Source of the DNA: Hyaloperonospora brassicae
Taxonomy: Eukaryota; Oomycota; Peronosporomycetes; Peronosporales; Peronosporaceae
Assembly: GCA_947650285.1 (NCBI GenBank)
Contig: CANTFL010000457.1
Location: 1-64,000, forward strand
Direction of reading: 5' to 3'
DNA length: 64,000 bases
The notes under the pieces are model-generated. The model worked only from the letters and a program-made list of their open reading frames with translations, was not told the origin of the DNA and searched no databases. Of the stretch, positions 1-44,384 are shown piece by piece. Within the stretch, counting starts at the first letter, position 1. Each line of letters opens with the position of its first letter. The translations under genes and the position numbers were made by a program.

Positions 1-3000
1 TTCTGTGTGCGAAAGGATTCAGGAGGATGGCGGATAGTGCACGCATTCAACAAATTGAATGCTGCAACGGTACCGGCTCAGACGCCGATGCCGAGGAAGG
101 ACGTCATCATAGATGGTATGTCAAAGAGTACCATCTTTTCGTCCATGGATCTGATGGATGGGTTCTATCAGATCCTCATGCGTGAACGGGACATCCCGTA
201 CACAGCAGTGAGCACCCCCAGCGGGATGCTGTGGGAGTGGCTAGTGATGCCACAGGGGCTGAGCAATGCCCCTGCAACATTCAACAGATGAGTTACAAAT
301 CTGTTGAGACCGGTGCGAGACTTCGCACCGAGTTACTTTGACGATGTGTTCGTCCATAGCCGGGCTATGGACAGAAAGACGGACGTTGAAGTTCACAGAA
401 CTCACGTTTGTCAAGTCCTTCAACTTATGCGCAAGCATAAGTTGTACGACAACCTCAAGAAGTGTATATTCGCGGCTAGTGAAATACCACTTTTCGGGTG
501 CATCGTGGGTAAACACGGCGTACGCCCTGAACCCGAAAAGATCAAGGCGATCACCGACTGGTCCGTGCCATTCGATGTCAAGGGACTAAGGAAGTTCCTT
601 GGGCTAGCGGCGTACTTGCACAAGTACTCGCGCAACTACGCCGAGATGACTGTTCATCTTTCTTGCTTGCTCAAGAAAAATGTCAAGTGGTCATGGAACG
701 CTGAGTGCCAGCGTTCCTTTGAGGGTATCAAGCAAAGCCTGATGCAATCGCCGATCTTGGCGATTGCAGATCAGGTTAGACCATTTCATGGGGTCTGTGA
801 CGCCAGCGATTTTGCGATCGGCTGTGCGTTAATGCAGTTCGATGCAGATGGCGCGGAGCGCGTCATCTGCTATCATTTGCGAAAGCTGCAATCACCTGAG
901 CTTAATCACCCAGTGCATGACACAAAACTCCTTGCCATGAACTATGCACTGGATAAGTTTCGTGTCTATCTCTTAAGATATAGACCGTTCATCGTGTATA
1001 CCGACCATGCGTCACTACGCACGGCCGTAAACAGCCCACACCTCTCGCAAAGGATGGCGAGGTGGCTGTCTTTCTTCGCGGATTAAAATTCTCCGTGGAG
1101 TATAAACCAGGACGACTCAATGTCGTCGCTGATGCGCTTTCGCGCCGGCCCGATTTCGAGCCGGACTCACAAATCAACAGTGAGGATTAGCCCACTGTTG
1201 CGACACTGTCAGTCAGTGTCCCGTCGTCAAGTTTACTTGACGACGTACGAAAGGCAAACGCGGAAGATAAAGATCTTCTGCGATTGATGGATCTTCTGGT
1301 GAATCCATCCAGTAAATCCATGGAAGGATTTACCGGCTTTGTACCGATCCTCATCGGATCGGTATAGTACACGCAACGGATTGCTGTACTATACAGCTGT
1401 TGCCGACGACACGTCTCGTGTCGTCGTACCCGCTCATCATGATTTGCGTTTACGCATCATGTATGAGTGTCACGATGTCCCAACAGGTCGCCATCGTGGG
1501 AGAGAAAAGACTTACCTCACGGTAAGTCGTGACTTTTACTGGCCACGCCAGTATCAGTTTGTACGCAAGTACATACGTGCTTGCGAGGTTTGTCAACGGG
1601 TGAAGCCTAGTACTTCATCCCGTGCGCCATTGCAGCCTCTGCCTGTTCCGACAGAGTGCCGGCAGTCCGTTTCAATGGACTTCGTCTTCGGTTTTCCCGA
1701 AGACGCTCACAAGAATAATGGCATTCTTGTGTTTGTTACCGATTCAGCAAAATGGTGCATCTTGCTGCAGTGCCCGAGTCCATCACGACAACCGGCTGTG
1801 CTCGTGTCTTTCTTGACACGATCTTCCGACTCCACGGGTTGCCCCGTGAACTCGTATCCGACCGTGATCCCCGGTTCACGGCGGAGTTTTGGCAATCCGT
1901 GTTCCGCACATTGGGAACACGATTGAAGATGTCTACTTCTGACCACCCGGAAACAGATGGTCAGACGGAACGTGCGAACCGTGTCCTCGAAGAGATCCTT
2001 CGAGGATATGTCCACTCGTTTTCGAGTTGGATCGAATTTCTTCCAATGGTGGAATTCGCCATCAATAATTCGGTGCATGCCTCAACCCAGCACACACCGT
2101 TTTACGTGAATGGTTCACGCCATATGCGTATTTTTCGCCCTTATACAGAGTGACTCTTGGATAAGGGGGGGAGGGAATCGCTCGAGCAAAAACCGTTTTG
2201 GCTCTTCCTCATCACCTGTCGACGCTAAAGTCGTCACGTATGATGCCGATGTCGATCAAGTCGACATCGATGAAGAAGATCATCTCAATAATAGCGGCGA
2301 CGCTATTACTGACTCGGATGATGATGACGATGCTGGTATATTCAGCATCGTCAACGATTATACCAGCGAGGAAGAAGACAACCTCGCTGAAGAAGAGAAC
2401 AATTTCTTAGCAGTGCGCACGAAGCGCACTGAAAGACAAAACAACGAGTCAGCAGAGAACTTCCTGCTGACTCGAGAAGCGGTAGTCCGTTTTGTTCAGG
2501 ACTTCATCGCAAATGCGGTGGACCATTAGAAACGGAACGCAGACAAGAATGGAAGAGCAAATGTTCTTTCATTCAAAGTTAACGACCTAGTACTACTGTC
2601 TACGGTAAACCTGCCTGGACACGCAGTCACTAGTGTCGACGGTAGTAAACTAATGCCAAAGTACACCGGGCCATTTCGAGTGTTGCATCGCAAGGGCAAT
2701 GCATACACACTCGAATTTCCGCGTAAGATGCGCACGCATCCTACGTTTTACCTGGGGCGACTCAGGCCGTACTGTCAGAGCGAGCCTTCCTTTTCCGATG
2801 AAGATAGCCCCCACGTTCAAGAACATCCATCAAGTACTTGCGTTCGCGCTCCAGACGATCCATCTGGTCGCGCAGATACGATACCTCGGAACTCAACCGA
2901 GATATCTCCCCGCGAGCTGTCGCCAGCTCGCCGAATAGGGAGCGGACATCCCGCTCGACCTGAAGCTGCGCTGTGGCGTAATCGGCGCGGTCTCTCGCCC

Positions 3001-3390
3001 GATCAGCCTCGTGATCCTTGCGGTTCTTCCGCACGGTATCAGTCAAAGCGTAGCGCCGGTCGCGCTCGTGCTTCAAGTCATCGCTCAATTCATCGATTGC
3101 GCGATCCATCTCGTAAGGGTCGAGATGGTGGGCCTGGGGTTCTGTAGGAGGTCTTTCCTTCTCCACCACATCCATTGGTGGATTCTCACGGTGGTCAACG
3201 CTTTCTAGTGAAGCGTATCTTGAATCACCGTGACGATTCAGGATCAAGGACGAGCTACCTCGTCCAGTGGCGGGGGTATCCAACCTCTTGGAACAGCTGG
3301 GAGCCCCGCTCTCATCTGTTGATGGATGTTGAAGGTCTCGTCCGCCCGTATGACGAGACTCATCCGATTGGTCCGACGGCCCATCGGTAA
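1..3390 (+). pseudogene. Element A pol pseudogene (RT-RNase H-IN-chromodomain)
   Basis: The frame shows reverse transcriptase with the YFDD catalytic motif near 330, RNase H with a DASDFAIGC motif near 800, integrase with an HHCC zinc finger (about 1468-1610) and a DDE core (SMDFVF, SDRDPRF, DGQTERAN), a GPF module near 2670 and a chromodomain at about 3175-3370 (SYLVQWRGY). In-frame stops include TGA 289-291, TAA near 1084, TAG 1188-1190, TAG 2527-2529 and TAG 3145-3147, with a frameshift near 1750. TGA 289 and TAG 1188 recur in other copies. At the integrase tail this copy has seven Gs (about 2165-2171) where the other elements have six, so here the two pol frames are joined directly. Confidence 0.9.
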
Positions 3391-4462
3391 ACACGCGCCC
3401 TAGGCGCTTGTAGACAGATTGCAAGTTTGCAATCGCGTCACGCATCTCCTCCAAGATGTGTGCCCTTCCCCAGAGCGAACTTAGGGAATACACGTCCCTA
3501 TGTGCACGCTGCGAGTTGTCAACACAACTCGCACAAGGGTCTCCCCATGTGAGGCAAGGAATGCCTTCCTCACTCGACAAACAGTGCAACCGGTACCTGG
3601 CACCGGTTGGCGTTCGCTTTTCGAGCCTGAGGCGTGTCGCCTCAAGTTTCTTGAGCCACCCTTCTCGTCCAAAATTCTTTACGTTTTGGACGAACGCGTT
3701 CCACGCAGCCAAAAGCGAGTCTTTGTCACGCTTTTGGTTGCCATTGTACCATCGACGTCTAAGGAAGACATCGGGATAAAAGTCTTCCTCAGCGCGAAAG
3801 TTGCTCGCGCTAGGAGTCAAGCCGTGAAGCTCAGTCGCATCGAATAATGGTAGTCGATGGTGTTGGCTTGTCTCGTGAGACAAGCTATTGATGAGCCGTC
3901 CAGGCAAACGCCACGGCTTCAGCTCATCACGCTTCACAGTGGTTGACGAGTTGACGATGGTGCAATCCATCGTCATACTGACAACCGTGGTACCCTTGTC
4001 AGTACCACGGTTGTCATTATGACGATGGATTGCACCATCGTCAACTCGCTCGTGCGAAGGAGCACGAGCTGATCTCGGTGATGAACAAACATACTCATCA
4101 TCAGATTCGTCATCACTGCCGAACAGACTGTGTTTTAACTCACGAATCCGTTCGTCCGGCAAGGGCCTTGGCGAACACTGAGGCGTCGCCGGTGAGCGAG
4201 ACGCCTCTGCAGCATTGCCCGAGTCAGACGTGTCTGACTCGCCAGAGTAGATGACCTCAATGTTGGGGTCATCATGCGCACGCGGTGCTGTACTGCGTGC
4301 ACCTGCAGCACCTCTTGCTGCAGGCGAAGAACGAGCAGCAGACGACGAATCGTCTGCCGCAGAAGCTGGCACAGGCACAGACACTGTGTGCCTTGAGTCA
4401 CCCCGCATAGACATGTTAACTATGCGAGGTCGAGCGGAAAGTGAATGGAACGGACCCAACAA
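2762..4462 (-). CDS. Antisense ORF of element A (566 aa), intact
   Basis: This is a long uninterrupted ORF on the strand opposite to pol. It starts just inside the 3' LTR and runs back across the chromodomain and integrase tail. A second start at about 4414 (MSMRG) matches the start used in element B. The N-terminal third is Ser/Ala-rich and acidic. The middle carries a CX6CX2CX7H motif (CLTWGDPCASCVDNSQRAH) and the C-terminal 120 residues form a charged coiled coil ending in a basic stretch (RKRKAR). I recognise no named family. It stays open although pol in the same copy has at least five stops. Possible roles, all inference, are an accessory nucleic-acid-binding or structural protein. Confidence 0.75.
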   Translation of the reverse strand: MLGPFHSLSARPRIVNMSMRGDSRHTVSVPVPASAADDSSSAARSSPAARGAAGARSTAPRAHDDPNIEVIYSGESDTSDSGNAAEASRSPATPQCSPRPLPDERIRELKHSLFGSDDESDDEYVCSSPRSARAPSHERVDDGAIHRHNDNRGTDKGTTVVSMTMDCTIVNSSTTVKRDELKPWRLPGRLINSLSHETSQHHRLPLFDATELHGLTPSASNFRAEEDFYPDVFLRRRWYNGNQKRDKDSLLAAWNAFVQNVKNFGREGWLKKLEATRLRLEKRTPTGARYRLHCLSSEEGIPCLTWGDPCASCVDNSQRAHRDVYSLSSLWGRAHILEEMRDAIANLQSVYKRLGRVFTDGPSDQSDESRHTGGRDLQHPSTDESGAPSCSKRLDTPATGRGSSSLILNRHGDSRYASLESVDHRENPPMDVVEKERPPTEPQAHHLDPYEMDRAIDELSDDLKHERDRRYALTDTVRKNRKDHEADRARDRADYATAQLQVERDVRSLFGELATARGEISRLSSEVSYLRDQMDRLERERKYLMDVLERGGYLHRKRKARSDSTA

Positions 4463-4530
4463 GTGCTCCCTGTCCCAATGGTGACCAACGGGTGGCCGCC
4501 ATATTTTCGATAGTCACACGTTGACTATCA

Positions 4531-4545
4531 GTTAAGGGGGGGTGA
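4531..4545 (+). promoter_or_regulatory. Polypurine tract of element A
   Basis: A run of A and seven Gs ends in GTGA immediately before the 3' LTR, the expected place of the plus-strand primer. It is preceded by a short hairpin (GATAGTCA / TGACTATC). Confidence 0.75.
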
Positions 4546-4935
4546 TGTAACGGGGCAGCCCGTTACATGGAATTGTCACTTTAAGAAAAGTGACAATAAA
4601 GAATATTATGCTGAATATTCTTTGAACAATATCACCGAAGCGGTGATATTGAAGGGTCGACCAAGGAGTCTGCTCATTGGTTGATATCTTGATGATATCA
4701 ACCCACGAATCGCCGCAAGACGCGGGCAATGAGTGGTGACGAGACGTCACCATACACTCAGTTATACTAACATAATTAAGTCAGGTTAAACAGAGAGACA
4801 GTAGTTAAAAGACTTAATTATATTAATATAACTGTTTTACTTTTCCCTTATCTACGCTTCCTCGTTTGCCTCGTGTACGCTTGTCGGGGCACGATACCCT
4901 TGCGTTAAGCTCACGCAAGGGTGTGCCCCGTTACA
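4546..4935 (+). repeat. 3' LTR of element A (390 bp)
   Basis: The LTR is bounded by TGTAACGGGG and CCCCGTTACA. It consists largely of consecutive short hairpins, for example CAATATCACCG / CGGTGATATTG at 4627-4651 and ATTGTCACTTT / AAAGTGACAAT at 4572-4597. It shares diagnostic variants with the solo LTR at 22575-22962. Confidence 0.92.
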
Positions 4936-5975
4936 CTTACACATAACATACCACGCTTACGCTGACCCCTCATGACCGATAACGGCTCTCACATTGTACT
5001 TTTGTGCCTATTTGTGATTCAATGCGGCCTCATCTGACCGCCTGTGCCAAAACGAGAGTAAGCGAGGGACGTCCGCACATTGAAGCAGAAGATGTTGATA
5101 GGTACGACGAATGAAGAAATAGACCCGCTTATTGAACGCAGGCAAGTCTAAAGCAAGCAATCAGTAGCCAAACACATCGCGCTGGATGGTAGGAGCTTCT
5201 TGCCGTACGAGTAGATGACGCAGATTGTGATTTAGAGGAAGCGCGCGGGTATTCTCGCTGCTTACTCGCCCTTAGACTGATGTCATTACATGCCGACGCA
5301 CTTCCCTATTTAAACTCATCGAGCAACAACGAACAGAGGCGAAGATCTCCGAAGAGAAAGTCATCTGGCCCCCTTACCTTGGACGGGAAGTCCCCCTTAG
5401 TGGGGCCAAGGTTAAAGGGGGAGGCCTTTTCTCCGCTGCGCGTGCTACGGGAGGCATCGCAGCGTGCGATTCGAGAGGGAAGCAATCCTCCGTCATCCTG
5501 TGGCACGGGGAAGGACGACAGAGATCGGCATCCCCGTGCCTTCGTTAGTTCCTGGTTTTCATGAAGTGCCTCCCCTCGCGCCGACTCGTTCGCTGCGCGA
5601 GATACCCACTCCCACGAAGTGAACTCTCCTAAGAAACTGATGACCTGTTGAGATTTAGTACCGGTCGTTTATGTAGAGTAATCACCAGGCCACGATACTC
5701 TTCGTCTCGTTGTGCGCCTGGGCACGTCTGCACTAGATTGTGCAATGGGATCGGTCCGAAGAGCAGAGCAAGTCGATCACCACGGAAGCGGCCAGGGATT
5801 ACACAGAGATGGCACGCTAGGACTTCCTAAGTGGAACAGGCCTCTTTGCCATGCGTCCTCTGTCCATTGAAGCAGATGAAGCGCGAAGCGACGCGCAGCC
5901 CAGCCATCCGTCCAAGAGTGCGCACAAAGTTTTAACCCTGTACTTGGTCAACAGTCATTATTACTTGGCCTTTCG
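4936..5975. repeat. Left arm of inverted duplication, outer part
   Basis: This stretch is, by eye, a near-perfect reverse complement of about 21536-22574. No gene of its own is evident. It ends at TTTCG (5971-5975), the target duplication of element B. The arm resumes at 13957 on the other side of B. Confidence 0.9.
5971..5975 (+). repeat. Target site duplication of element B, left copy (TTTCG)
   Basis: TTTCG precedes the 5' LTR. The right copy at 13952-13956 reads TTTTG, one C-to-T change. The uninterrupted site is visible in reverse complement at 21535-21539 and 62408-62412. Confidence 0.85.
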
Positions 5976-6363
5976 TGTAACGGGGCAGCCCGTTACATGA
6001 TATTGTCACTTAAGGAAAGTGACAATAAAGAATATAAGATGGATATTCTTTAAACAATATCACCAAAGTGGTGATATTGAAGGGTCGACCAAAGGGGCTG
6101 TTCATTGGTTGATATCGTGATGATATCAACCCACCAATCGCCGCAAGACGCGCGCAATGAGTGGTGACGAGACGTCACCATACATGCAGTTATATTAGTA
6201 TAATTAAATTAAGTCAAACGAAGAGACAGTAGTTTAAAGACTTAATTTATTAATATAACAGTTCTACTTTTACCCTACCTACGCTTCCTCGCTCGCCACG
6301 TGTACGTCCGTCGGGGCACCCAAATCCCTTGCGTTAAGTTACGCAAGGGTGTGCCCCGTTACA
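5976..6363 (+). repeat. 5' LTR of element B (388 bp)
   Basis: The LTR starts TGTAACGGGG and ends CCCCGTTACA. Seven perfect hairpins follow one another: 5976-5997, 6002-6026, 6028-6050, 6055-6079, 6107-6131, 6162-6180 and 6326-6349. They have arms of 7-11 bp and loops of 3-7 nt. The promoter should lie here, but I could not place a TATA box or initiator with confidence. Confidence 0.95.
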
Positions 6364-6365
6364 CC

Positions 6366-6373
6366 TGGTAGCA
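6366..6373 (+). promoter_or_regulatory. Primer binding site, element B
   Basis: TGGTAGCA begins two bases after the 5' LTR. It is complementary to a tRNA 3' end TGCTACCA, as in many initiator-methionine tRNAs. The same eight bases follow the 5' LTR of element D (44343-44350), and TGGTAGCC follows that of C. Confidence 0.6.
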
Positions 6374-6407
6374 CTTTGTAGTCCTTCCAAGGACCACATC
6401 ATCCAAC

Positions 6408-7562
6408 ATGAACATGTTGGATGAAGAAGACACCTTTCACGCCACGCGTGAAGGGTTTACCCATTTGAGTGACATCGAATGGGGTGCGGTAGAACGAATG
6501 AGTTCTACCGTAGGCGAACTCGTCGTCAGCACCATGTTGGAGTCTCTAGACAGAGACCAACAACATGCTGCTATCGCCAAGTTCATTCACAATGAACTTG
6601 CTCTCGAGAGGGAGAAAGTAGCCTTGCTTCACCAGCAAGGCTCTCAACAGGCCGAGCAGTTGAGAGAACTCGGTGCTCAACAGACGGAGCTGTTGAGACA
6701 GCAGCAATTCCATGCTGCTGTGGGCGGGACGGCGCATGCGCGTCGTCCCGAAGTGATGAAAGTCGACATCTCCAAGTACAGTGGAGTCCCGGAGGACTCC
6801 CTGTTACTATGGTTTGTCGAACTCGACAGAGCCCTAAGGGCTCGTCGCGTCGAAGATGAGCAAATGAAACTCACATTTGCTCAGACCCACTTGGCAGGGC
6901 GTGCCAAAACTTGGTCCCTGGGACTCGAGAGTAGCGACCCAAATGTGTTTAGGTCGCTAGATGACTTCAAGTCCCGGCTCAGACAAACGTTTGAGCCGCC
7001 ACGTGCTGAGTTCAGGGCTCGTTCAGAGCTCCTGAAACTCAAGCAGGGTAAGCGTGATGTGCACGCTTACGCACAACATATACGACTCCTTGCGAGTAGT
7101 ATAACTGCAAACCCAGTTCATGAACACACGTTGATTACGGTGTTCATGCAAGGGCTCGCAGAAGGGCCCGTCAGGAGCCACCTGTTCCGCCTTGAGCTGA
7201 ATACGCTTGAAGAAGCGATATCAGCCGCGGAACAGGAAGACTTTAGCATGAGACAGGCTCATGCTAGCTCAAACTCTTACCGTCCACCGAGACGACAAGA
7301 GATCGGAGGTCCAGAACCAATGGACCTCTGTTATGTTGAGAGCGAGAGACCTCGCTCTACAAGCAACAAGCGATTGCAGAGGTGCAATCGCTGTCAGAAG
7401 TTAGGGCACTACGCATACGAGTGTAGTGCTCCGCGCCCAGTACCAAACAGTACTGAGCGAAATGGACGACCATTCGCCAGAAAGGGCAATGGGCGTGGGT
7501 CCAGCGCTGTTGCGAAGCCGCAACAGCGAGACGGGCCATCAAAAAATGGTCGGGGTCAGTAG
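6408..7562 (+). CDS. gag: Gag polyprotein, element B (384 aa)
   Basis: The structural protein is expected to assemble the virus-like particle and bind genomic RNA. Residues about 65-100 form a Gln/Glu-rich coiled coil, residues about 115-270 match the retrotransposon gag core (LLLWFVELDRAL, FKSRLRQTFEPP, LLASSITANPVHEHTLITVF), and a CCHC knuckle CNRCQKLGHYAYEC lies at about 326-339, followed by a basic tail. The start ATG lies inside an 11-bp hairpin (CATCCAACATG / CATGTTGGATG, 6400-6423). The ORF ends at TAG 7560-7562, thirteen bases after an A6 slippery run. Confidence 0.92.
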   Translation: MNMLDEEDTFHATREGFTHLSDIEWGAVERMSSTVGELVVSTMLESLDRDQQHAAIAKFIHNELALEREKVALLHQQGSQQAEQLRELGAQQTELLRQQQFHAAVGGTAHARRPEVMKVDISKYSGVPEDSLLLWFVELDRALRARRVEDEQMKLTFAQTHLAGRAKTWSLGLESSDPNVFRSLDDFKSRLRQTFEPPRAEFRARSELLKLKQGKRDVHAYAQHIRLLASSITANPVHEHTLITVFMQGLAEGPVRSHLFRLELNTLEEAISAAEQEDFSMRQAHASSNSYRPPRRQEIGGPEPMDLCYVESERPRSTSNKRLQRCNRCQKLGHYAYECSAPRPVPNSTERNGRPFARKGNGRGSSAVAKPQQRDGPSKNGRGQ

Positions 7563-7580
7563 GGGCGGAGCGCCCTACTG
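7541..7580 (+). promoter_or_regulatory. Predicted -1 ribosomal frameshift signal between gag and pol
   Basis: In the gag frame the sequence reads A AAA AAT (7541-7547), a canonical X XXY YYZ heptamer. Nine bases downstream is a hairpin with an 8-bp stem CAGTAGGG / CCCTACTG (7557-7564 and 7573-7580). The pol frame is the -1 frame and is open from 7547. The signal is identical in element D (45521-45560). Element C keeps the A6 run and hairpin, with a one-base change of context. Confidence 0.75.
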
Positions 7581-10500
7581 ATCCAGCAACCTCAAGAGAA
7601 TTTGCAAACCTCTTGACGAAAGTTGCTCCAGATACACAATCATTGTGTGTCTCTGCACCTGGTGATGACGTTTCGCTCATCACCTTGAAGTTGGAAGCGA
7701 CAAATGATTTGTCGCTTCGTGCCCTAGTAGACTGTGGGGCGTCGAACAACTTTGTTCGTCGCCAGTCACTAGAGGGTCGTAGGCTCAAGTTCGTTGAGCG
7801 CGACATTCCCCTCACAAGGATGACGGTGCGCCTTGCAACAGGCGCATCGATAACCGTTGAGAAACGTGTAGTAGGAATCCACTACACGTTAGAGGGCGAG
7901 CAGTACGATGATGATTTCATCGTACTAGATCTGGATGACAAATTTGATGTCATCCTGGGATTACCTTGGCTCAGAAAATACGAGCCAAGGGTGAGCTGGC
8001 AGCATCGATCCGTGAAGATGCCTGCTGCTTGTTCATCAGATGGCCATCTGATGAACATCTTGGAGCGTCCACAAGCGTGTGGATGTTCTGCGAGTGAGTG
8101 CGATGGCCTCACTTGCGGTACGGTCGTTAGCACGACTGCACAAGGTCACAGTGTAGTTGATCACTACACTGTGGAGCAAGCTCCCGGCGGCTGTACAGAA
8201 GTACAGGCTGCGCCGAAGGTCCACCACTCGAATAAGTCGAGTGGACCGGGACATGGATGCATGCCTAGCGGGCAGCATCTTAGAAGAAAGAAATCTGTTG
8301 CCCCCAAGGGGCAACATGAAAATCCTAGGTCGACTGGAGAGTCGACCGTAGAGGATCGGTTCCTGACTGTGGTTGCACAGCCACAGTCGGAAGACGTCGA
8401 GGGAATAAGTCCCCACGTACTTGAGGAAGGAGTTCCTCAAGAGTTGCTTGCTGAGGGATCAGGCCCTCAGCAACCTGTGGAAGCAAGATCCCAGGAAGAA
8501 ACCGAGACGTTGAACGTCTTGGTTAATGACGGATCAAGCGTAGGCGCTTATACGCTTGATCTGATTGTGCCTCCGAAGTTGACTTCGGAGATAACTCAGT
8601 TGCCAACGCTAGAACCGAAACGGTTCTTGCGTGATCTGCGTAGTGGCAAAGTCAAGCAGATCTGCGTACTCGTCACAGAGGACGAGTATGTGACCGACAT
8701 TCGGTCGGCAACAGTATTTGCTGAGAACGAACGGGTTCTCAGCAGCTCATCGATGGACGAAAGTGTCCTCGATGAGAAGACTCGGATTGAGCGATACGCG
8801 TCCCAATCCTGGGAGTCACTTCAGGCAAATCCTTTGTATAAGGATTTGATCGAATTCAGGGATGTGTTCCCTGAATCCGTACCTTGCGAGTTGCCTAAGG
8901 ACAAAGGCACTCGACACGAGATCGAGCTCAAACCGGGCTCGAAATACTGTGTCATGAAGCAGTGGCCACTGCCTCGTGAACAAGTGATAGCGATCGACAA
9001 GTTCTTTGCCGATCGCTTAGCAGCGGGCCATGTGAGGGAATCAACATCCCCTCACAGCTCTCCGACCTTCTGTGTGCGAAAGGCCACAGGAGGGTGGCGG
9101 ATAGTGCACGCATTCAACAAGTTGAATGCTGCAACGGTACCGGCTCAGACGCCGATACCGAGGAAGGACGTAATCATAGATGGTATGTCAAAGAGTACCA
9201 TCTTTTCGTCCATGGATCTGATGGATGGATTCTATCAGATCCTGATGCGTGAACGGGACGTCCCGTTCACAGCAGTGAGTACCCCCAGCGGGATGCTGTG
9301 GGAGTGGCTAGTGATGCCACAGGGGCTGAGTAATGCCCCTGCAACATTCAACAGATGTGTAACAAATCTGTTGAGACCGGTGCGAGACTTCGCACCGAGT
9401 TACTTCGACGATGTGTTCGTCCATAGCCGGGCTATGGACGGAAAGACGGACGTTGAAGTTCACAGAACTCACGTTCGTCAGGTTCTTCAACTTATGCGCA
9501 AGCATAAGTTGTACGCCAACCTCAAGAAGTGTATATTCGCGGCTAGCGAAATACCACTTCTTGGGTGCATCGTGGGTAAACACGGCGTACGCCCTGATCC
9601 CGAAAAGATCAAGGCGATCACCGACTGGCCAGTGCCAGTCGATGTCAAGGGACTTCGAAAGTTCCTTGGTCTTGCGGCGTACTTGCACAAGTACTCGCGC
9701 AACTACGCCGAGATGACGGTACATCTTTCTTGCTTGCTCAAGAAAAATGTCAAGTGGTCATGGAACGCTGAGTGCCAGCGTTCCTTTGAAGGTATCAAGC
9801 AAAGCTTGATGCAATCGCCGATCTTGGCGATTGCAGATCAGGACAGACCATTTCATGTGGTCTGTGACGCCAGCGATTTCGCAATCGGCTGTGCGTTAAT
9901 GCAGTTCGATGCAGATGGCGCGGAGCGCGTCATCTGTTATCAATCGCGTCAGCTGCAAGCAGCTGAGCGTAATTACCCAGTGCATGACAAGGAACTCCTT
10001 GCCATGAAATACGCACTGGCTAAATTTCGCGTCTATCTCTTGGGAGATAGACCGTTTGTTGTCTACACGGACCATGCGTCATTACGCACGGCCGTAAACA
10101 GCCCACACCTCTCGCAAAGAATGGCGAGGTGGCTGTCTTTCTTCGCGGAGTATAACTTCTCCGTGGAGTATAAACCGGGACGACTCAATGTCGTCGCGGA
10201 TGCTCTTTCGCGCCGGCCCGATTTCGAGCCGGACGCGCAATCCAACAGTGAGGACAAGCCCACTGTTGCGACACTGTCAGTCAGTGTCCCGTCGTCAAGT
10301 TTACTTGACGACGTACGAAAGGCATACGCGGAAGATAAGGATCTTCTGCGATTGATGGATCATCTGGTGAATCCATCCAGTAAATCCATGAGGGATTTAC
10401 CGGCTTTGTACCGATCCTCATCGGATCGGTATAGTACACGCAACGGATTGCTGTACTATACAGCTGTTGCCGACGACACGCCTCGTGTCGTCGTACCCGC

Positions 10501-11476
10501 TCATCATGATTTGCGATTGCGCATCATGTATGAGTGTCACGATGCCCCAACAAGCGGCCATCGTGGTAGAGAAAAGACTTACCTCACGGTAAGTCGCGAC
10601 TTTTACTGGCCCCGCCAGTATCAGTTTGTTCGCAAGTACATCCGTGCTTGCGAAGTATGTCAACGGGTGAAGCCTAGTCCTTCATCCCGTGCGCCATTGC
10701 AGCCTCTGCCTGTTCCGACAGAGTGCTGGCAGTCCGTTTCAATGGACTTCGTCTTCGGGTTTCCCGAAGACGCTCACAAGAATAATGGTATTCTTGTGTT
10801 TGTGGACCGATTCAGCAAGATGGTCCATCTTGCTGCTGTCCCTGAGTCAATCAAGGCTCAAGGTTGTGCTCGTGTCTTTCTAGACACGGTCTTTAGACTC
10901 CACGGGTTACCCCGTGAACTCGTATCCGACCGTGACCCTCGGTTCACGGCGGAATTTTGGAAAACCGTGTTCCGTACTCTCGGAACACGATTGAAGATGT
11001 CCACTTCTGACCATCCAGAAACAGATGGTCAGACGGAACGTGCGAACCGTGTCCTCGAAGAGATTCTTCGAGGATATGTCCACTCGTTTCCGAGTTGGAG
11101 CGAATTCCTACCCATGGTGGAATTCGCCATCAATAATTCGGTGCATGCTTCAACACAGCACACACCGTTTTACGTGAATGGCCTACGCCATCCACGTGTG
11201 CCCACCCTTCTAGAGTGTGACTCTTGGATAAGGGGGGAGGGACTCGCTCGAGCAAAAACCGTTTTGGCTCTTGCTCATCACGTGTCGACGCAAACGTCGT
11301 CACGTATGATGCCGATGTCGATCAAGTCGACATCGATGAAGAAGATCATCTCAATAATAGCGAAGACGCTATTATTGATTCGGATGATGATGACGATGCT
11401 GGTATATTCAGCATCGCCAACGATTATGCCAGCGAGGAAGAAGACAACCTCGCTGAAGAAGAGAGCAATCTCTTAG
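7547..11476 (+). CDS. pol: Pol polyprotein, element B: protease-RT-RNase H-integrase core
   Basis: The frame is open from the slippery site to 11476 and has no ATG at its beginning, which fits translation by frameshifting from gag. Counting from 7613: aspartic protease with DCGAS at about residue 40; RT from about 430 with SYFDDVF at about 596; RNase H with VVCDASDFAIGC at about 750 and YTDHASLR; integrase HHCC finger at about 975-1015 (GHRGREK, CEVCQRVKP); DDE core with SMDFVFGF, VSDRDPRF and DGQTERAN up to about 1138. Downstream of a G6 run (11232-11237) the frame carries about 80 residues without integrase-tail features and stops. The real tail continues in the -1 frame. Confidence 0.93.
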   Translation, partial: WSGSVGAERPTDPATSREFANLLTKVAPDTQSLCVSAPGDDVSLITLKLEATNDLSLRALVDCGASNNFVRRQSLEGRRLKFVERDIPLTRMTVRLATGASITVEKRVVGIHYTLEGEQYDDDFIVLDLDDKFDVILGLPWLRKYEPRVSWQHRSVKMPAACSSDGHLMNILERPQACGCSASECDGLTCGTVVSTTAQGHSVVDHYTVEQAPGGCTEVQAAPKVHHSNKSSGPGHGCMPSGQHLRRKKSVAPKGQHENPRSTGESTVEDRFLTVVAQPQSEDVEGISPHVLEEGVPQELLAEGSGPQQPVEARSQEETETLNVLVNDGSSVGAYTLDLIVPPKLTSEITQLPTLEPKRFLRDLRSGKVKQICVLVTEDEYVTDIRSATVFAENERVLSSSSMDESVLDEKTRIERYASQSWESLQANPLYKDLIEFRDVFPESVPCELPKDKGTRHEIELKPGSKYCVMKQWPLPREQVIAIDKFFADRLAAGHVRESTSPHSSPTFCVRKATGGWRIVHAFNKLNAATVPAQTPIPRKDVIIDGMSKSTIFSSMDLMDGFYQILMRERDVPFTAVSTPSGMLWEWLVMPQGLSNAPATFNRCVTNLLRPVRDFAPSYFDDVFVHSRAMDGKTDVEVHRTHVRQVLQLMRKHKLYANLKKCIFAASEIPLLGCIVGKHGVRPDPEKIKAITDWPVPVDVKGLRKFLGLAAYLHKYSRNYAEMTVHLSCLLKKNVKWSWNAECQRSFEGIKQSLMQSPILAIADQDRPFHVVCDASDFAIGCALMQFDADGAERVICYQSRQLQAAERNYPVHDKELLAMKYALAKFRVYLLGDRPFVVYTDHASLRTAVNSPHLSQRMARWLSFFAEYNFSVEYKPGRLNVVADALSRRPDFEPDAQSNSEDKPTVATLSVSVPSSSLLDDVRKAYAEDKDLLRLMDHLVNPSSKSMRDLPALYRSSSDRYSTRNGLLYYTAVADDTPRVVVPAHHDLRLRIMYECHDAPTSGHRGREKTYLTVSRDFYWPRQYQFVRKYIRACEVCQRVKPSPSSRAPLQPLPVPTECWQSVSMDFVFGFPEDAHKNNGILVFVDRFSKMVHLAAVPESIKAQGCARVFLDTVFRLHGLPRELVSDRDPRFTAEFWKTVFRTLGTRLKMSTSDHPETDGQTERANRVLEEILRGYVHSFPSWSEFLPMVEFAINNSVHASTQHTPFYVNGLRHPRVPTLLECDSWIRGEGLARAKTVLALAHHVSTQTSSRMMPMSIKSTSMKKIISIIAKTLLLIRMMMTMLVYSASPTIMPARKKTTSLKKRAIS

Positions 11477-12456
11477 CAGTGCGCACGAAGCGCACTGCTA
11501 GACAAAACAAAGAGTCAGCAGAGAACTTCCTGCTGACTCGAGAAGCGGTAGTCCGTTTCGTTCAGGACTCCATCGCAAATGCGGTGGACCGTCAGAAACG
11601 GAACGCAGACAAGAATGGAAGAGCAAATGTTCTTTCATTTAAGGTTAATGACCTAGTACTACTGTCAACGGTAAACCTACCTGGACATGCAGTCACTAGT
11701 GTCGGCAGTAGTAAACTACTGCCGAAATACATTGGGCCATTTCGAGTGTTGCATCGCAAGGGCAATGCATACACACTCGAATTGCCACGTAGGATGCGCA
11801 CGCATCCTACGTTTTACGTGGGGAGGCTTAGGTCGTACTGTCAGTACGAGCCTTCTTCTTCCGATGAAGATAGCCCCCACGTTCAAGAACATCCATCAAG
11901 TTCTTGCGTTCGCGCTCCAGACGATCCGTCTGGTCGCGCAGATATGATACCTCGGTATTCAACCGAGTTATCTCTCCGCGAGCTGTCGCCAGCTCGCCGA
12001 AAAGGGAGCGGACATCCCGCTCGACCTGAAGCTGCGCCGTGGCATAATCGGCGCGATCCCTCGCCCGATCAGCCTCGTGACCCTTGCGGTTCTTCCGCAC
12101 GGTGTCGGTCAAAGCGTAGCGTCGGTCGCGCTCGTGCTTCAAGTCATCGCGCAATTCATCGATTGCGCGATCCATCTCGTGAGGGTCGAGATGGTGGGCC
12201 TGGGGTTCTGGAGGAGGTCTTTCCTCCTCCACCACATCCTTTGGTGGATGCTCACGGTGATCAACGCTTTCTAGTGGAGCGTATCTTGAATCACCGTGAC
12301 GATTCAGGATCAAGGACGAGCTACCTCGTCCAGTGGCGGGGGTATCCACCCTCTTGGAACAGCTGGGAGCCCCGCTCTCAGCTGTTAATGGATGTTGAAG
12401 GTCTCGTCCACCAGTATGACGAGACCCATCCGATGAGTCCTGTGGCCCATCGGTAA
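11224..12456 (+). CDS. pol: Integrase C-terminal tail and chromodomain, element B
   Basis: The integrase tail continues here, one base back (-1) from the preceding pol frame; the two overlap over 11224-11476. Order of parts: a very acidic linker (DSDDDDDAG), the GPF module (YIGPFRVLHRKGNAYTLELP at about 11724-11785), a Pro/Ser/Arg-rich spacer, then a chromodomain (about 12247-12440, [18 protein letters not shown]) expected to target integration to modified histones. The spacer and chromodomain are encoded opposite the antisense ORF. Joining requires a programmed -1 shift, slippage on G6, or acceptance that B is frameshifted. Element A has G7 and reads through. Confidence 0.85.
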   Translation: MDKGGGTRSSKNRFGSCSSRVDANVVTYDADVDQVDIDEEDHLNNSEDAIIDSDDDDDAGIFSIANDYASEEEDNLAEEESNLLAVRTKRTARQNKESAENFLLTREAVVRFVQDSIANAVDRQKRNADKNGRANVLSFKVNDLVLLSTVNLPGHAVTSVGSSKLLPKYIGPFRVLHRKGNAYTLELPRRMRTHPTFYVGRLRSYCQYEPSSSDEDSPHVQEHPSSSCVRAPDDPSGRADMIPRYSTELSLRELSPARRKGSGHPARPEAAPWHNRRDPSPDQPRDPCGSSARCRSKRSVGRARASSHRAIHRLRDPSREGRDGGPGVLEEVFPPPPHPLVDAHGDQRFLVERILNHRDDSGSRTSYLVQWRGYPPSWNSWEPRSQLLMDVEGLVHQYDETHPMSPVAHR

Positions 12457-13432
12457 ACACGCGCCCTAGGCGCTTGTAGACGGATTGCAAGTTTGCAATC
12501 GCGTCACGCATCTCGTCCGAGAGATGTGCCCTTCCCCAGGGCGAATTTAGGGAGTACACATCCCTATGTGCACGCTGCGAGTTGTCAACACAACTCGCAC
12601 AAGGGTCTCCCCATGTGAGGCAAGGAATGCCTGCCTCACTCGATAAACAATGCAACCGGTACCTAGCACCGGTTGGCGTTCGCCGTTCGAACCTGAGGCG
12701 TGTTGCCTCAAGTTTCTTGAGCCACCCTTCTCGTCCAAAATTCTTTACGTTTTGGACGAACGCGTTCCACGCAGCCAAAAGCGATGTTTTGTCACGCTTT
12801 TGGTTGCTATTGTACCATCGATGTCTAAGGAAGACATCGAGATAAAAGTCTTCTTCAGCGCGAAAGTTCTTCGCGCTGGGATCCAAGCCGTGAAGCTCAG
12901 TCGCATCGAATAAGGGTATTCGATGGTGTTGGCCTGTCTCGTGAGACAGGCTATTGATGAGTTGTTCGGGCAAACGCCACGGCTTCAACTCATCACGCTT
13001 CACAGTGGTACCCTTGTCGGTACCACGGCTCCCAGATTGACGACGGCTCGCGCCATCGTCATCACGCTCGTGCGAAGACGCACGAGCCGGCGGTGGTGAA
13101 GAATAGAACTCACCACCCTGATCATCGTCATCACTGCCGAACAGACTGTGATGCGAATCACGAGTCCGTTCGTTCGGCAGTGGCCTTGGCGAATACTGAG
13201 GCGTCGCCGGTGAGCGAGACGCCTCTGGAGCATTGCCCGAGTCAGACACGTCTGACTCGCCAGAGTAGATGACCTCCACATCGGGGTCATCGTACGCACG
13301 CGGCGTGATACCGCGTGCACCTGCAGCACCTGTTGCTGCAGGCGAAGAAGGGGCGGCAGACGACGAAGCGTCTGCCGCAGAGGCTTGCACAGCACCAGGC
13401 TGTGTGGGTCTTGAGTCACCTCGCATAGACAT
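11828..13432 (-). CDS. Antisense ORF of element B (534 aa)
   Basis: This intact ORF runs opposite to pol from just inside the 3' LTR and overlaps the integrase tail and chromodomain for 629 bp. An in-frame TGA just upstream fixes the start at MSMRG. Residues 1-130 are low-complexity, Ser/Ala/Pro-rich and acidic. The central part has conserved blocks (NFGREGWLKKLEATRLRFE, CLTWGDPCASCVDNSQRAH, MRDAIANLQSVYKRLGRVF); the CX6CX2CX7H pattern at about 265-290 could bind zinc. Residues about 418-520 form a highly charged coiled coil, and the C-terminus is basic (RKKKAR). Homologous ORFs occur in A, C and D. Antisense ORFs downstream of pol are known in some plant gypsy elements, but I do not recognise this protein. 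Function is unknown. Confidence 0.8.
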   Translation of the reverse strand: MSMRGDSRPTQPGAVQASAADASSSAAPSSPAATGAAGARGITPRAYDDPDVEVIYSGESDVSDSGNAPEASRSPATPQYSPRPLPNERTRDSHHSLFGSDDDDQGGEFYSSPPPARASSHERDDDGASRRQSGSRGTDKGTTVKRDELKPWRLPEQLINSLSHETGQHHRIPLFDATELHGLDPSAKNFRAEEDFYLDVFLRHRWYNSNQKRDKTSLLAAWNAFVQNVKNFGREGWLKKLEATRLRFERRTPTGARYRLHCLSSEAGIPCLTWGDPCASCVDNSQRAHRDVYSLNSPWGRAHLSDEMRDAIANLQSVYKRLGRVFTDGPQDSSDGSRHTGGRDLQHPLTAESGAPSCSKRVDTPATGRGSSSLILNRHGDSRYAPLESVDHREHPPKDVVEEERPPPEPQAHHLDPHEMDRAIDELRDDLKHERDRRYALTDTVRKNRKGHEADRARDRADYATAQLQVERDVRSLFGELATARGEITRLNTEVSYLRDQTDRLERERKNLMDVLERGGYLHRKKKARTDSTT

Positions 13433-13548
13433 GTTAGCTATGCGAGGTCAAGCGGAAAGTGAGTGGAACGGACCAAACAAGTACTCCCTGTCCCAATGGT
13501 GGCCAACGGGTGGCCTCCATATTTCGATAGTCATACGGTGACTATCAG

Positions 13549-13563
13549 TTAAGGGGGGGGTGA
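13549..13563 (+). promoter_or_regulatory. Polypurine tract of element B
   Basis: AA and eight Gs followed by TGA lie directly before the 3' LTR. Upstream is a hairpin GATAGTCA / TGACTATC, which also sits before the polypurine tract of A. Confidence 0.75.
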
Positions 13564-13951
13564 TGTAACGGGGCAGCCCGTTACATGATATTGTCACTTA
13601 AGGAAAGTGACAATAAAGAATATAAGATGGATATTCTTTAAACAATATCACCAAAGTGGTGATATTGAAGGGTCGACCAAAGGGGCTGTTCATTGGTTGA
13701 TATCGTGATGATATCAACCCACCAATCGCCGCAAGACGCGCGCAATGAGTGGTGACGAGACGTCACCATACATGCAGTTATATTAGTATAATTAAATTAA
13801 GTCAAACGAAGAGACAGTAGTTTAAAGACTTAATTTATTAATATAACAGTTCTACTTTTACCCTACCTACGCTTCCTCGCTCGCCACGTGTACGTCCGTC
13901 GGGGCACCCAAATCCCTTGCGTTAAGTTACGCAAGGGTGTGCCCCGTTACA
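13564..13951 (+). repeat. 3' LTR of element B (388 bp)
   Basis: By eye it is identical base for base to 5976-6363. It is followed by TTTTG (13952-13956), the slightly changed target duplication. Confidence 0.95.
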
Positions 13952-14687
13952 TTTTGAGAGTGTCCCCCGTGACGTCTTGAGCATCGAGCCAGCCGAATGA
14001 GGAACGTGGTAGGAGAAAGTTCGTGTCATGGTAGATGACCGAGGTAGTTTCCACACAAGAGACATCTGACGAGTGATAAGTAGCTCTAATAGACGATTTG
14101 ACCTCTCTCTCTCGTCATTACATGCCGACGCGCTGATTTCTTCGTCGTATGCGACACTACTGCACCAGAAAATTGTGGCCGACGGATCTGCAATTTTCTT
14201 GCGTAAAAGATTGTTATCGTAAATGACTCCGTACCACCTAGCAGCAAGACGAGAGATCTCGTTTAACAGTTCGCATACCATACTAGCATTGACGCTTTTA
14301 CAAGCTTTTTCATTAGAAATCAATTGGCGAACTTCCGATATCCAAGCAAAATTGACCACAATAGCGCGGAGCACCGTGTTGTGATTGTATTCCAGCAGTC
14401 TCATTTAGCGCCTATCCTGTTGCTCAGCCTCCCGGAATTTGTTCGAAGGCTAACGTTGTCAGTCCATTTGATACTACGAAGATTGCGCGTACACCAACGT
14501 GAATAAACGGGGCGCGATTGCTCGCAGCCGATTGTGCCTGATTGGTTTTTACGCTAAAAAAATGAAGGGAGGGCTGACCTCAGCAACTATCGGCCTGGGA
14601 ACTGTCAGGATCGAGCCCACGTTACTGCGAGTGTGGAGTCTATTGCTCTGCCATCCCATGAAAGCGAACCGGAAGGCCGATTCTTAG

Positions 14688-15960
14688 GGGAGAGGCTAAA
14701 TACACCTAGCATTATGGCTAAGTACACCGCGCCTATCCATTAGACTTAATGTTTATATGACAACCGTTGTATCACATTCAGGCCACGTCACTTTGAATAT
14801 TACAGGATAAGCGAAGTAGGAAGGCACCTGTTACATAGCCACGTCAATTCAAAAAGGAAATCCTCGTTGTCTAGCGCATGATGATGAGCCCTTCATCCAC
14901 ATTCACTAGTGCTGCTGCCACTGCTACGATCGTTCATACTGATACAAATTCTGTCCACATCCACTACTTCTGCTGCCACTGCTACGGTTGTTAATGCTGA
15001 TACTAATACTGTCGTCGCTGACAATCAGGTTAAGATCTGAGTTGATACTGGCCTTAATCCTACCGCCGCTGATCTCTCATGGATCTGTGAAGAATCTCCA
15101 CCGGTCGGGCCTTTTAAAAGTCCAAAGGCGGCTGTAGAGGCTTTAAAGCAGGACGCCGTACGCTAAAACGTTGCTATTAGTGTATCCCGCGGCTGTTCGA
15201 TTGGTCCCAAGCGCAGTTTTCTCACATGTTGGCAGAAAAAACATCATAGGAGATCCTACAGTCGGCACACGTCAATGCGGGATCGCGGAACAAAAAAGGT
15301 CGGCTGTTCATGCGAGCTCGTGATCATGTATGACAAGCACGCCACTGAAGAAATTGCCTGGTCAAAGATTTTAGTGGACAACAGGCACACCGGCCACTCT
15401 CGTTGTATCAGCAAGACCATGCTCTCAACGCCACCGGCGGCGCGACGTGCGATGCTATACATTGACGATATTAGTTCTAAGGTCGTTCAGATGCATCAGG
15501 ATGGAGCTGCTCCACGAGTATGTGTGCATGTCGAAGTCATATACAGCAGGCCATTATCTGTTTTTTGTCTGTATGTGATTATTATAGGTTATTTTAAACC
15601 AGTTTAAGGAGGCGTGTGTCCTTTTAAATGTCAATGATGTCCACAATATCGTTCAGAAGGCAAAGAGAAAGAAACTTGGTGGAAAATTACACTTGGAAGC
15701 TTTGCTGCAGCACATGAAAGACGAGCATAATAAATCTACGGTTGCAGTGCTAGTCGGGTGCATTTTAATTACCTTATTCTGTAATTCATATGAATTAGCG
15801 TGGCCTGGCTCCGTTACAGGTGCCGTTTTACTTAGCTTTTCTGTAATATTCAAAGTGACGTGGCCTGAATGTGATACAACGGTTGCCATATCGATATTAA
15901 GTCTAATGGATAGGCGCGCGGTGTATTTAGCCATCCTGCTATGTGTATTTAGCCTCTCCC
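14688..15960 (+). mobile_element. Non-autonomous MULE, left-arm copy (1273 bp)
   Basis: The element has imperfect terminal inverted repeats of roughly 180 bp starting GGGAGAGGCTAAATACAC and a perfect 9-bp target duplication GATTCTTAG (14679-14687 and 15961-15969), the length typical of Mutator-like elements. The interior encodes, in broken form, what resembles the N-terminal region of a MULE transposase (AVEALKQDAVR; KVGCSCELVIMYDKHA; WSKILVDNRHTGHSR). The catalytic and SWIM domains are missing, so it would need a transposase in trans. Confidence 0.85.
15275..15607 (+). pseudogene. MULE transposase N-terminal fragment (left arm)
   Basis: An open stretch of 110 codons contains KVGCSCELVIMYDKHATEE and WSKILVDNRHTGHSRCISK, resembling the N-terminal Cys/His DNA-binding region of FAR1/MULE transposases. 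Upstream codons from about 15045 read in the same style but contain stops. The DDE domain does not follow. A near-identical copy sits at 19884-20216 on the opposite strand. Confidence 0.5.
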
Positions 15961-16315
15961 GATTCTTAGGTGTACTTCGAAGAGTAAATCTCAAAACCAG
16001 TACCACAAATGCACGAAAGTCCCAAAACCAGTACTATGCTCAACTCAAGTATAAAAACACGCTAAATAGTGTCAATCACATTATACTGGACTGCAACATG
16101 GGACAAGAAACTGCTTGATTGCTAACGAGTCTATCCATTAAATAGACAACTGTCACGCATGGTCCCGAACGCTCCATTTTCTACCAATGTGCGTTCACTT
16201 ATCAATGAGCGCCCACGCGCCGAAGTGCCAACTCGCAGTGTGCACATTGCATGTGGGCCCGTCATTGGCATATGAACTAGTGGTCGTGGGGGTCCTGTTA
16301 GGACACGATGCCGCT

Positions 16316-16546
16316 CGTGAGCAGTGGCAGCAACAGGTAAGTACTTATTGTGGATGACGATTGTGTTGTTTAACGATTGCGTGTTATGTCAGTGTGTATG
16401 TATTGTAGTGTGAGGACCAAGAATGATAGAAGCACATAAAGCTGATGACTGGTTCAAGTGGTGCGCACCCGTGAAGCTCGCGAGCAGTGGCAGCAACAGG
16501 TAAGTACTTACTATGGATGACGATTGTGTTGTTTAACGATTGCGTT
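16316..16546 (+). repeat. 64-bp direct repeat carrying a splice-donor-like CAG/GTAAGT
   Basis: A segment beginning GAGCAGTGGCAGCAACAG followed by GTAAGTACTTA occurs at 16319-16382 and again at 16482-16545. The first copy follows an ATG at about 16309 and is followed by an intron-like stretch ending TGTATTGTAG near 16411. The right arm has only the outer copy. It may be the first exon and intron start of the central MULE gene. Confidence 0.5.
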
Positions 16547-18922: not shown

Positions 18923-19530
18923 ATGGGCTCACACAAACCATTCAAAAAAATAGCAATTTGATAAAGTAAAACAACTAATTAATTATATATATGGGCCACT
19001 TCGACTTTACAGGTTGATTAACAAATATATCCTTCAGTACACTCAATATCGTGATGTGCGTCTATCGTTATTGGTCCTTGCACTACAATACATACACACT
19101 GACATAACACGCAATCGTTAAACAACACAATCGTCATCCACAATAAGTACTTACCTGTTGCTGCCGCTGCTCACGAGCGGCATCGTGTCCTAACAGGACC
19201 CCCACGACCACTAGTTCATATACCAATGACGGGCCCACATGCAATGTGCACACTGCGAGTTGGCACTTCGGCGCGTGGGCGCTCATTGATAAGTGAACGC
19301 ACATTGGTAGAAAATGGAGCGTTCGGGACCATGCGTGACAGTTGTCTATTTAATGGATAGACTCGTTAGCAATCAAGCAGTTTCTTGTCCCATGTTGCAG
19401 TCCAGTATAATGTGATTGACACTATTTAGCGTGTTTTTATACTTGAGTTGAGCATAGTACTGGTTTTGGGACTTTCGTGCATTTGTGGTACTGGTTTTGA
19501 GATTTACTCTTCGAAGTACACCTAAGAATC

Positions 19531-20803: not shown

Positions 20804-21086
20804 CTAAGAATCGGCCTTCCGGTTCGCTTTCATGGGATGGCAGAGCAATAGAATCCACACTCGCAGTAACGTGGGCTCGATCCTGACAGTTCCCAGGCCG
20901 ATAGTTGCTGAGGTCAGCCCTCCCTTCATTTTTTTAGCGTAAAAACCAATCAGGCACAATCGGCTGCGAGCAATCGCGCCCCGTTTATTCACGTTGGTGT
21001 ACGCGCAATCTTCGTAGTATCAAATGGACTGACAACGTTAGCCTTCGAACGAATTCCGGGAGGCTGAGCAACAGGATAGGCGCTAA

Positions 21087-29179: not shown

Positions 29180-29310
29180 TCATCCCACTTAACTGATAGT
29201 CACTATTTGACTATCAATTCTTTTGTGTGTACCCGTTGGATGCCAATGGGGACGGGAGGCACTTGTTCGTCAGATCCATTCATTCTGACGTTTCCTCGCG
29301 TAATTACCAT

Positions 29311-36019: not shown

Positions 36020-36070
36020 GTTGAATGATGCGAGTAGTGGTCCTTAGACGGAGTAAAAAGGGCTACCAGG

Positions 36071-44340: not shown

Positions 44341-44384
44341 CCTGGTAGCACTTTGTAGTCCTTCCAAGGACCACAGCATCCAAC

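Follow-up and report, generated by a model that had tools for sequence, protein, structure and literature searches.

A Ty3/gypsy element of an oomycete genome is saturated with short perfect hairpins

We found that element B, a Ty3/gypsy retrotransposon in the 64,000-nucleotide stretch of Hyaloperonospora brassicae DNA analysed here (the window), contains 111 non-overlapping perfect hairpins, defined by perfect arms of at least 8 bp and a loop of at most 12 nt. Dinucleotide shuffles of B (n = 20) contain a mean of 1.70, so that the observed number is ~65 times that expected by chance. The arms are 8–14 bp long, and the loop length has its mode at 5 nt. The first-pass annotation had described B as saturated with perfect hairpins; all 18 of those it listed are in place with perfect arms, and the effect is larger than it claimed. 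We tentatively favour snap-back arm copying in nascent cDNA, which would perfect quasi-palindromes, as the origin of the hairpins. This reading is unproven, and the data do not cleanly separate it from its close rival, a constraint that acts on DNA or on the two strands.

The Ty3/gypsy clade to which B belongs, as a young member, has a high copy number in this oomycete genome and carries a chromodomain and an antisense ORF. Two 388-bp LTRs with TG...CA ends enclose its internal region, as in Ty3/gypsy elements, and the Pfam domains of pol follow the Ty3/gypsy (Metaviridae-type) order protease–RT–RNase H–integrase. Downstream of the integrase, the SH3/chromo ORF carries a PF00385 chromodomain (E = 1.1e-13), the arrangement of chromovirus-like elements. 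A putative primer-binding site, TGGTAGCACTTTG, lies near the 5' LTR, and a putative polypurine tract, AAGGGGGGGG, precedes the 3' LTR. The target-site duplication reads TTTCG and TTTTG on the two sides (one of five bases differs), and the empty site has one TTTCG. A search of viral and GTDB contigs with one 267-aa RT–RNase H query found no relative.

Table 1. Features of element B and related elements in the window. Hairpin counts for ORFs are compared with the mean (maximum) in codon-preserving shuffles, 200 per ORF.
Feature	Position	Strand	Remarks
Element A	1–4936	+	3' part of a relative, 90.7% identical; 52 hairpins vs 0.85 in shuffles
5' LTR of B	5976–6363	+	TG...CA; 7 perfect hairpins with arm at least 7
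gag ORF	6408–7562	+	Retrotrans_gag, Ty3_capsid; zinc knuckle below its cut-off; 14 perfect hairpins vs 0.54 (3)
pol ORF	7613–11476	+	protease, RT, RNase H, integrase (Pfam); 49 perfect hairpins, counted within 7613–11218, vs 1.14 (4)
Longest perfect hairpin of B	8030–8057		14-bp arms, loop 0
Hairpin with fixed compensatory change between subfamilies	8147–8173		both sides nonsynonymous
SH3/chromo ORF	11224–12456	+	Tf2-1-like SH3 and chromodomain; frame other than pol; 14 perfect hairpins vs 0.81 (4)
Antisense ORF	11828–13432	-	534 aa; no Pfam family matched; 24 perfect hairpins vs 0.70 (4)
3' LTR of B	13564–13951	+	388 bases, all identical to 5' LTR
Element C	28736–36512	-	subfamily-2 ends, D-like middle; 33 hairpins vs 1.25 in shuffles
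Element D	43946–51938	+	90.9% identical to B; 73 hairpins vs 1.15 in shuffles

Hairpin density in all four ORFs of B far exceeds that in codon-preserving shuffles (Table 1), the control that the first-pass annotation had proposed. Densities per kb are 15.5 in the LTR, 12.1 in gag, 13.6 in pol, 11.4 in the SH3/chromo ORF and 15.0 in the antisense ORF, with lower values in two short stretches, the 44-nt leader (0) and 13433–13563 (7.6). In 2-kb bins over 6001–14000, 110 hairpins were counted where about 1.6 are expected. Their spacing along B is random (CV 0.67 vs 0.64), and regular spacing was therefore rejected.

Hairpin saturation extends to elements A, C and D (Table 1), in agreement with the first-pass annotation, and to all 30 close copies fetched (29 besides B) across many contigs. 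It does not extend to the unrelated DNA that was counted. Window DNA that belongs neither to the elements nor to related LTRs (34.2 kb, with the hAT, MULE and coiled-coil genes counted only as part of this pool) holds 9 hairpins vs 5.8, and 30 Copia loci of the same genome hold 37 vs 22.6, both near chance; a host-wide process as the cause is rejected or weakened on this evidence. Among the Ty3/gypsy sequences sampled, one clade is fully hairpin-rich, and three other groups have a weak folding excess. A Ty3 relative that is 58% identical in RNase H–integrase (L083) is hairpin-poor, and the property must therefore have been gained or lost.

Predicted RNA folding likewise set B far apart from shuffled controls. 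In each strand, 39 of 39 windows of 200 nt have z < -2, and the folding energy lies below that of shuffles by 50% (sense) and 47% (antisense); the mean z is -0.05 for four Copia loci and 0.03 and 0.11 for two other stretches of the window. The sense strand folds no better than the antisense strand (z -7.11 vs -7.28, p = 0.67), a symmetry seen both within the antisense-ORF part and in 5976–11827. Allowing G-U pairs yields 139 helices in B and allowing A-C pairs 142; the 20 one-mismatch helices that persist include five of each type. Arm variants common to several copies number 15 GU vs 12 AC, and in the LTRs 3 vs 1. Thus, RNA-type pairing, in which G-U is tolerated over A-C and the transcript strand is favoured, was looked for in B and is absent. 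Perfect Watson-Crick arms without strand preference are instead what template switching and quasi-palindrome correction produce.

In snap-back arm copying, nascent cDNA would fold back at a quasi-palindrome during reverse transcription, and the polymerase would use one arm as the template for the other over up to about 10 nt before resuming its original template, so that a mutation in a single arm would either disappear or become a paired change. The results would be filtered by purifying selection on the proteins, and stem length would be capped through the loss of hairpins that are too stable to melt back. On this view, the hairpins would be attractors of a replication process particular to the clade, not signals. 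Such copying is favoured by the Watson-Crick symmetry and equal folding of both strands, by the similar density across B with random spacing and unrelated arm sequences, and by the near-chance Copia loci and the weak excess in other sampled Ty3 elements. Upkeep of some 110 redundant hairpins would also seem easier by local copying than by selection on one global function. The hairpin-poor L083 and the persisting one-mismatch helices speak against it.

Comparison of copies provided further support. Hairpins occupy conserved positions in different subfamilies, with compensatory changes in their arms, and each of the nine fixed compensatory pairs in gag-protease changes at least one amino acid. 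In the young set, single-copy synonymous variants per 100 sites are as frequent in arms as outside hairpins (2.69 vs 2.59), whereas shared ones are depleted (0.16 vs 1.36; 1 arm vs 22 outside sites, Fisher p = 0.017). Synonymous variants of the B clade behave alike (arms vs outside: shared 9 vs 74, single 49 vs 125; p = 0.002). This depletion of shared but not single-copy variants favours arm copying, as do the amino-acid-changing pairs together with the higher nonsynonymous share of shared arm variants over all 43 copies (32/24 vs 79/150, p = 0.002), as though protein change had followed in the wake of pairing.

Other features of the same comparisons count against copying. One-sided fixed differences between subfamilies outnumber compensatory pairs (19 vs 11), nine other B-clade copies have 0–2 compensatory pairs vs 4–37 one-sided, and the close copies contain a single pair altered on both sides, confined to one copy. 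A directional footprint sought in the one-sided differences (12 left, 7 right; 12:4 in gag-protease, 0:3 in protease-RT) was not clear. Of the 17 hairpins broken in the compared relatives, 6 fall in sequence absent from those relatives; 10 of the remaining 11 carry differences at 1–5 arm bases. Multi-base rewriting of one arm is rare among them, with 2–3 changes confined to one arm in only four single comparisons (identical rows of one hairpin counted once). Unbiased copying also predicts frequent paired changes in the noncoding LTRs, yet 5 of 12 shared arm variants there are paired, and LTR arms show no clear depletion of shared variants, both in a small, indel-rich set.

The stems appear to have a stability set-point, which again favours copying. 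GC-rich stems are shorter (rho between stem length and GC -0.29 in B, arm at least 7, and -0.63 in L070), and with RNA parameters the spread of hairpin energies is below that of 300 of 300 random controls. The set-point weakens under DNA parameters, where 7 of 300 controls are as narrow in B and 0 of 300 in L070; this tells against copying. Arm length (about 9 bp) is steadier than span across loop sizes, and a fixed span ruler led nowhere.

Purifying selection may instead act on hairpins in single-stranded cDNA or in transcripts of both strands, each of which would stay self-folded, a broken pair lowering transposition and so not being transmitted. We regard this as a serious possibility. It accounts for Watson-Crick pairing with strand symmetry and for the depletion of shared arm variants and the set-point; the antisense ORF suits it, and the scarce paired LTR changes suit it better than copying. 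However, selection would have to see some 1000 pairs spread over about 110 redundant hairpins. Perfect hairpins leave 66% of B uncovered, with gaps of up to 190 nt, and the symmetry holds away from the antisense ORF. The first-pass annotation had proposed selection for folded RNA or DNA, or snap-back copying, and it is partly supported. Snap-back copying fits, as does a constraint acting on DNA or on the two strands; folded sense RNA is disfavoured as a target of selection.

Selection for a folded sense RNA genome, as genome-scale ordered structure serving packaging or stability, is improbable in our estimation. The sense folding energy (z about -7), the compensatory evolution of arms and a set-point in B tighter with RNA than with DNA parameters agree with it, but G-U is not preferred over A-C in helices, shared arm variants or LTRs, and both strands fold alike; as the sole cause, RNA-structure selection is rejected or at least weakened by these two observations. 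Nor do the loops lend support to a signal: between B and D, they diverge about as fast as the rest (12.6 vs 10.4% for B's hairpins, 10.3 vs 10.7% for D's), which rejects or weakens loop-motif packaging signals. Small comparisons with C gave 28 vs 30%, 13 vs 30% (31 loop sites) and 33 vs 31%.

Escape from small-RNA silencing, in which segments of Dicer-product size would be self-complementary on both strands so that guides and targets self-fold, is unlikelier still. The hairpin span has its mode at 23 nt, a size that matches Dicer products, excess pairing is near background beyond about 28 nt, and the strands are alike; however, only about one-third of B is covered, arm length is steadier than span, and Copia in the same host lacks a hairpin excess. 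Inserted hairpin elements (MITE-like or double-hairpin) or an assembly artefact, suggested by the hairpins being many and short, can be dismissed with near certainty, as the arms share 26 7-mers vs 35.1 expected, with no excess over random stretches and hence no repeated copies of one hairpin sequence, and the hairpins sit inside open frames and recur in every close copy.

Snap-back copying, if taken to its full extent, would mean that the clade's RT writes and maintains its own inverted repeats, one arm being copied onto the other at each replication, as a local error-correcting duplicate in about one-third of the length that is strong enough to force amino-acid replacements; judged from sequence, this is conceivable but rather doubtful. 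Should the finding be upheld, perfect foldbacks would be imposed on a whole coding genome, over its codon and amino-acid choice, by either a replication enzyme or an unknown constraint, and the clade would offer a natural system in which to measure snap-back template switching in reverse transcription. The finding also carries a warning: functional RNA structure need not follow from strong folding energy and covariation.

Several known systems resemble B in part. Double-hairpin elements and other mobile short palindromes consist of many short perfect hairpins, as B does, but the arms of B are unrelated in sequence, lie inside frames and keep their positions. Genome-scale ordered RNA structure (GORS) of RNA viruses is a genome-wide folding-energy excess inside coding sequence. 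B likewise folds well below shuffles across its length, including its coding sequence, but differs in the size of the excess (about 50%), in its perfect short stems and in having neither G-U nor strand preference. Template-switch mutation, or quasi-palindrome correction, perfects short inverted repeats by sporadic events that are Watson-Crick only and strand-neutral; B shares these properties of the repeats, but it is saturated over an entire coding element, and a clear single-event footprint was not found. With chromovirus-like Ty3/gypsy elements, B shares LTRs, gag, protease–RT–RNase H–integrase, SH3 and chromodomain, and it stands apart from other Ty3/gypsy elements in being saturated with perfect hairpins and in carrying a long antisense ORF close to its 3' end.

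We counted as hairpins perfect arms of at least 8 bp separated by a loop of 0–12 nt, without overlap. By this definition the Ty3/gypsy element B contains 111 hairpins (114 when an overlap of up to 4 nt is permitted), against a mean of 1.70 over 20 shuffles, close to the one or two expected by chance in the first-pass annotation, whose 18 listed hairpins were all exact. Codon-preserving shuffles yielded few hairpins in any reading frame: 0.54 vs 14 in gag, 1.14 vs 49 in pol, 0.81 vs 14 in the SH3/chromo ORF and 0.70 vs 24 in the antisense ORF. The relatives A, C and D are likewise hairpin-rich, as had been claimed (52, 33 and 73 perfect hairpins), and the window minus elements and related LTRs held 9 hairpins, with 5.8 expected.

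Element B, of the Ty3/gypsy type, encodes gag, pol, an SH3 domain and a chromodomain between two identical LTRs of 388 bp. A Pfam search with its antisense ORF product (534 aa) found no match, and differences between B and A by codon position (44/45/63) suggest that this frame is under weak constraint at most. An empty site without B survives in an inverted duplicate of the flanks located at ~21.5 kb; the copies of the target duplication differ at 1 of 5 bases. In the 100.6-Mb host assembly, scored matches to the RT-RNase H stretch of B were 98–100% identical (best 144 of 5701 candidates). The 29 Elicitin matches suggest an oomycete host, this family not being known outside oomycetes. Relative C, at 28736-36512, is a mosaic, with ends ~72% like B and a middle 95% like D.

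Features in the window
Feature	Coordinates	Strand	Remarks
Antisense ORF	11828-13432 in B; 2762-4462 in A	-	open in both, 85% protein identity
Inverted duplicate	4546-5975, 13952-16437 and 19054-22962		99.2% identity; site without element B preserved
Middle of C	30815-34162		
Solo-LTR-like, sister family	57412-57848		own perfect hairpins, one with 13-bp arms placed similarly to a B LTR hairpin
69% relative	36761-37198		no hairpin with arms of at least 8
Tandem repeat	37801-38236		period 148 bp

Within this one genome, to which the survey was confined, 30 close copies (L014 being B itself), totalling 114 kb, carried 1505 hairpins where 23.6 were expected; 30 Copia loci, totalling 111 kb, carried 37, with 22.6 expected. 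Three Copia loci (L032-L034) had 5 perfect hairpins each, more than the others. Subfamily 2 (L070, L071, L074 and L066-L069), 75–80% identical to B in gag-protease, had 19–36 per 3.3–3.4 kb, with at most 0.6 expected, and L065, a decayed C copy 69% identical to B, had 11, with 1.2 expected. In eight subfamily-2 copies compared, identity switches at one common place (B 8183/8474), and the intervening 290 bp of B are missing. Among other Ty3 elements, L061 and L063, one family as judged by gag, had 3 and 2 hairpins per 3 kb, L083 had 1 per kb and L084 had 0 per kb; mean folding z was -2.2 for L061/L063, -1.2 for L083 and -3.5 for L084 (5 windows each for the last two), and -7.1 for B 5976-11827. 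These four showed a weaker folding excess, with strands not significantly different (L061/L063 p=0.075). In this sample, with many Ty3 families of the genome outside it, the strength of the trait varies by degrees among Ty3 elements and peaks sharply in one clade. Since L083, whose protein is 58% identical to that of B, has complementary bases in 43 of 98 pairs at B's hairpin sites (15–27% in slid controls, with shifted positions), either these sites were already partly palindromic earlier, or codons common to L083 and B favour complementarity.

Pairing is of the Watson-Crick type. B has 111 helices with Watson-Crick pairs alone, and 139, 142, 122 and 128 when G-U, A-C, A-G or C-T, respectively, is allowed; for the first pair beyond the stem, the counts match chance (GU 19, AC 17, AG 17, CT 13 and like pairs 47 of 113). 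RNA folding, the check proposed in the first-pass annotation, gave strong values for both strands (z -7.11 sense, -7.28 antisense, p=0.67), as in the antisense ORF region (-6.07 and -6.60, p=0.80). Stem length peaks at 8–10 bp, with few above 11, and stems are shorter where GC-rich (rho -0.29, p=0.002 for B, arm at least 7; -0.63 for L070). With RNA parameters, stem energy spread was tighter than in 300/300 random controls; under DNA parameters, controls were as narrow in 7/300 for B and 0/300 for L070. By codon phase, pol hairpins numbered 23, 20 and 6, the rare phase being that of wobble opposite wobble, where synonymous freedom is least; when an arm change is synonymous, its mate is synonymous too in only 12% of cases.

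We surveyed variants in pol 7613-10046 across 43 copies (young set, 32; B clade, 40). Single-copy synonymous variants had equal density in arms and outside hairpins, whereas shared ones were depleted in arms (1 vs 22 sites outside in the young set, p=0.017; 9 vs 74 in the B clade, p=0.002). In the young set, arms held no shared nonsynonymous variant, against 10 outside; in the wider sets such variants were equally dense (arms vs outside per 100 sites: 2.37 vs 2.71 in the B clade and 5.06 vs 4.87 over all copies). In the 30 close copies, the stretch 7601-11401 had single-copy variants at 42/954 arm and 156/2847 other sites, and shared variants at 4 and 56 (p=0.011). Given the relatedness of the copies, the sites counted do not represent independent events, and some shared variants, pooled here, may stem from segmental duplication instead of transposition. 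Single and shared counts together indicate that arms mutate normally after insertion, whereas inherited multi-copy variants avoid them. In the LTRs this depletion is unclear (arms 12 shared and 46 single; elsewhere 41 and 126).

Between B and D, arms diverge by 4.7%, loops by 12.6% and the rest by 10.4%. In an alignment of 13 copies that omitted L067, L072, L076 and L078-L080, 237 pairs present in at least 3 copies were formed in 90.6% of cells (31–40% slid), a measure biased towards itself because the pair structure derives from the same copies; both sides had changed in 19 pairs (1–10 slid) and 73 cells (1–19 slid). Against shuffles, the excess of pairs changed on both sides was modest (19 vs 14.5, reached in 18/500), while 0/500 reached the observed share of paired cells (90.6%, against 89.2% in shuffles) and 0/500 the observed number of cells with changes on both sides (73, against 30.2); further pair types went the opposite way (66 observed, 78.4 shuffled). 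Fixed inter-group differences in gag-protease comprised 9 compensatory, 16 one-sided (GU 4, AC 5, transversion 7) and 1 double non-pairing among the 237 pairs (171 same, 40 undetermined), and in protease-RT 2 compensatory and 3 one-sided (all AC) among 414 (273 same, 136 undetermined). All nine gag-protease compensatory pairs alter at least one amino acid, judged in B codon context; for two of them, in which L070 lacks letters on one or both sides, the pair types were translated with the standard code.

Together, the pairing, strand, stability and variant data point to Watson-Crick self-complementarity itself as what matters, on either strand, within ~28 nt, up to a stability limit and renewed at replication. 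Of the causes put forward in the first-pass annotation, we tentatively favour snap-back: nascent cDNA would fold back and one arm would serve as copy source, so that one local process would renew self-complementarity and selection on ~110 redundant hairpins would be unnecessary. Against this stand few one-arm rewriting footprints, 20 uncorrected one-mismatch helices in B, 0–2 compensatory vs 4–37 one-sided pairs per B-clade copy, and the scarcity of paired changes in LTRs (5/12 shared arm variants paired); one-sided fixed differences showed no clear snap-back polarity. Almost as likely as snap-back copying is selection for hairpins in both strands or in cDNA. The known systems for comparison with this hairpin saturation are GORS, template-switch mutation and hairpin elements.
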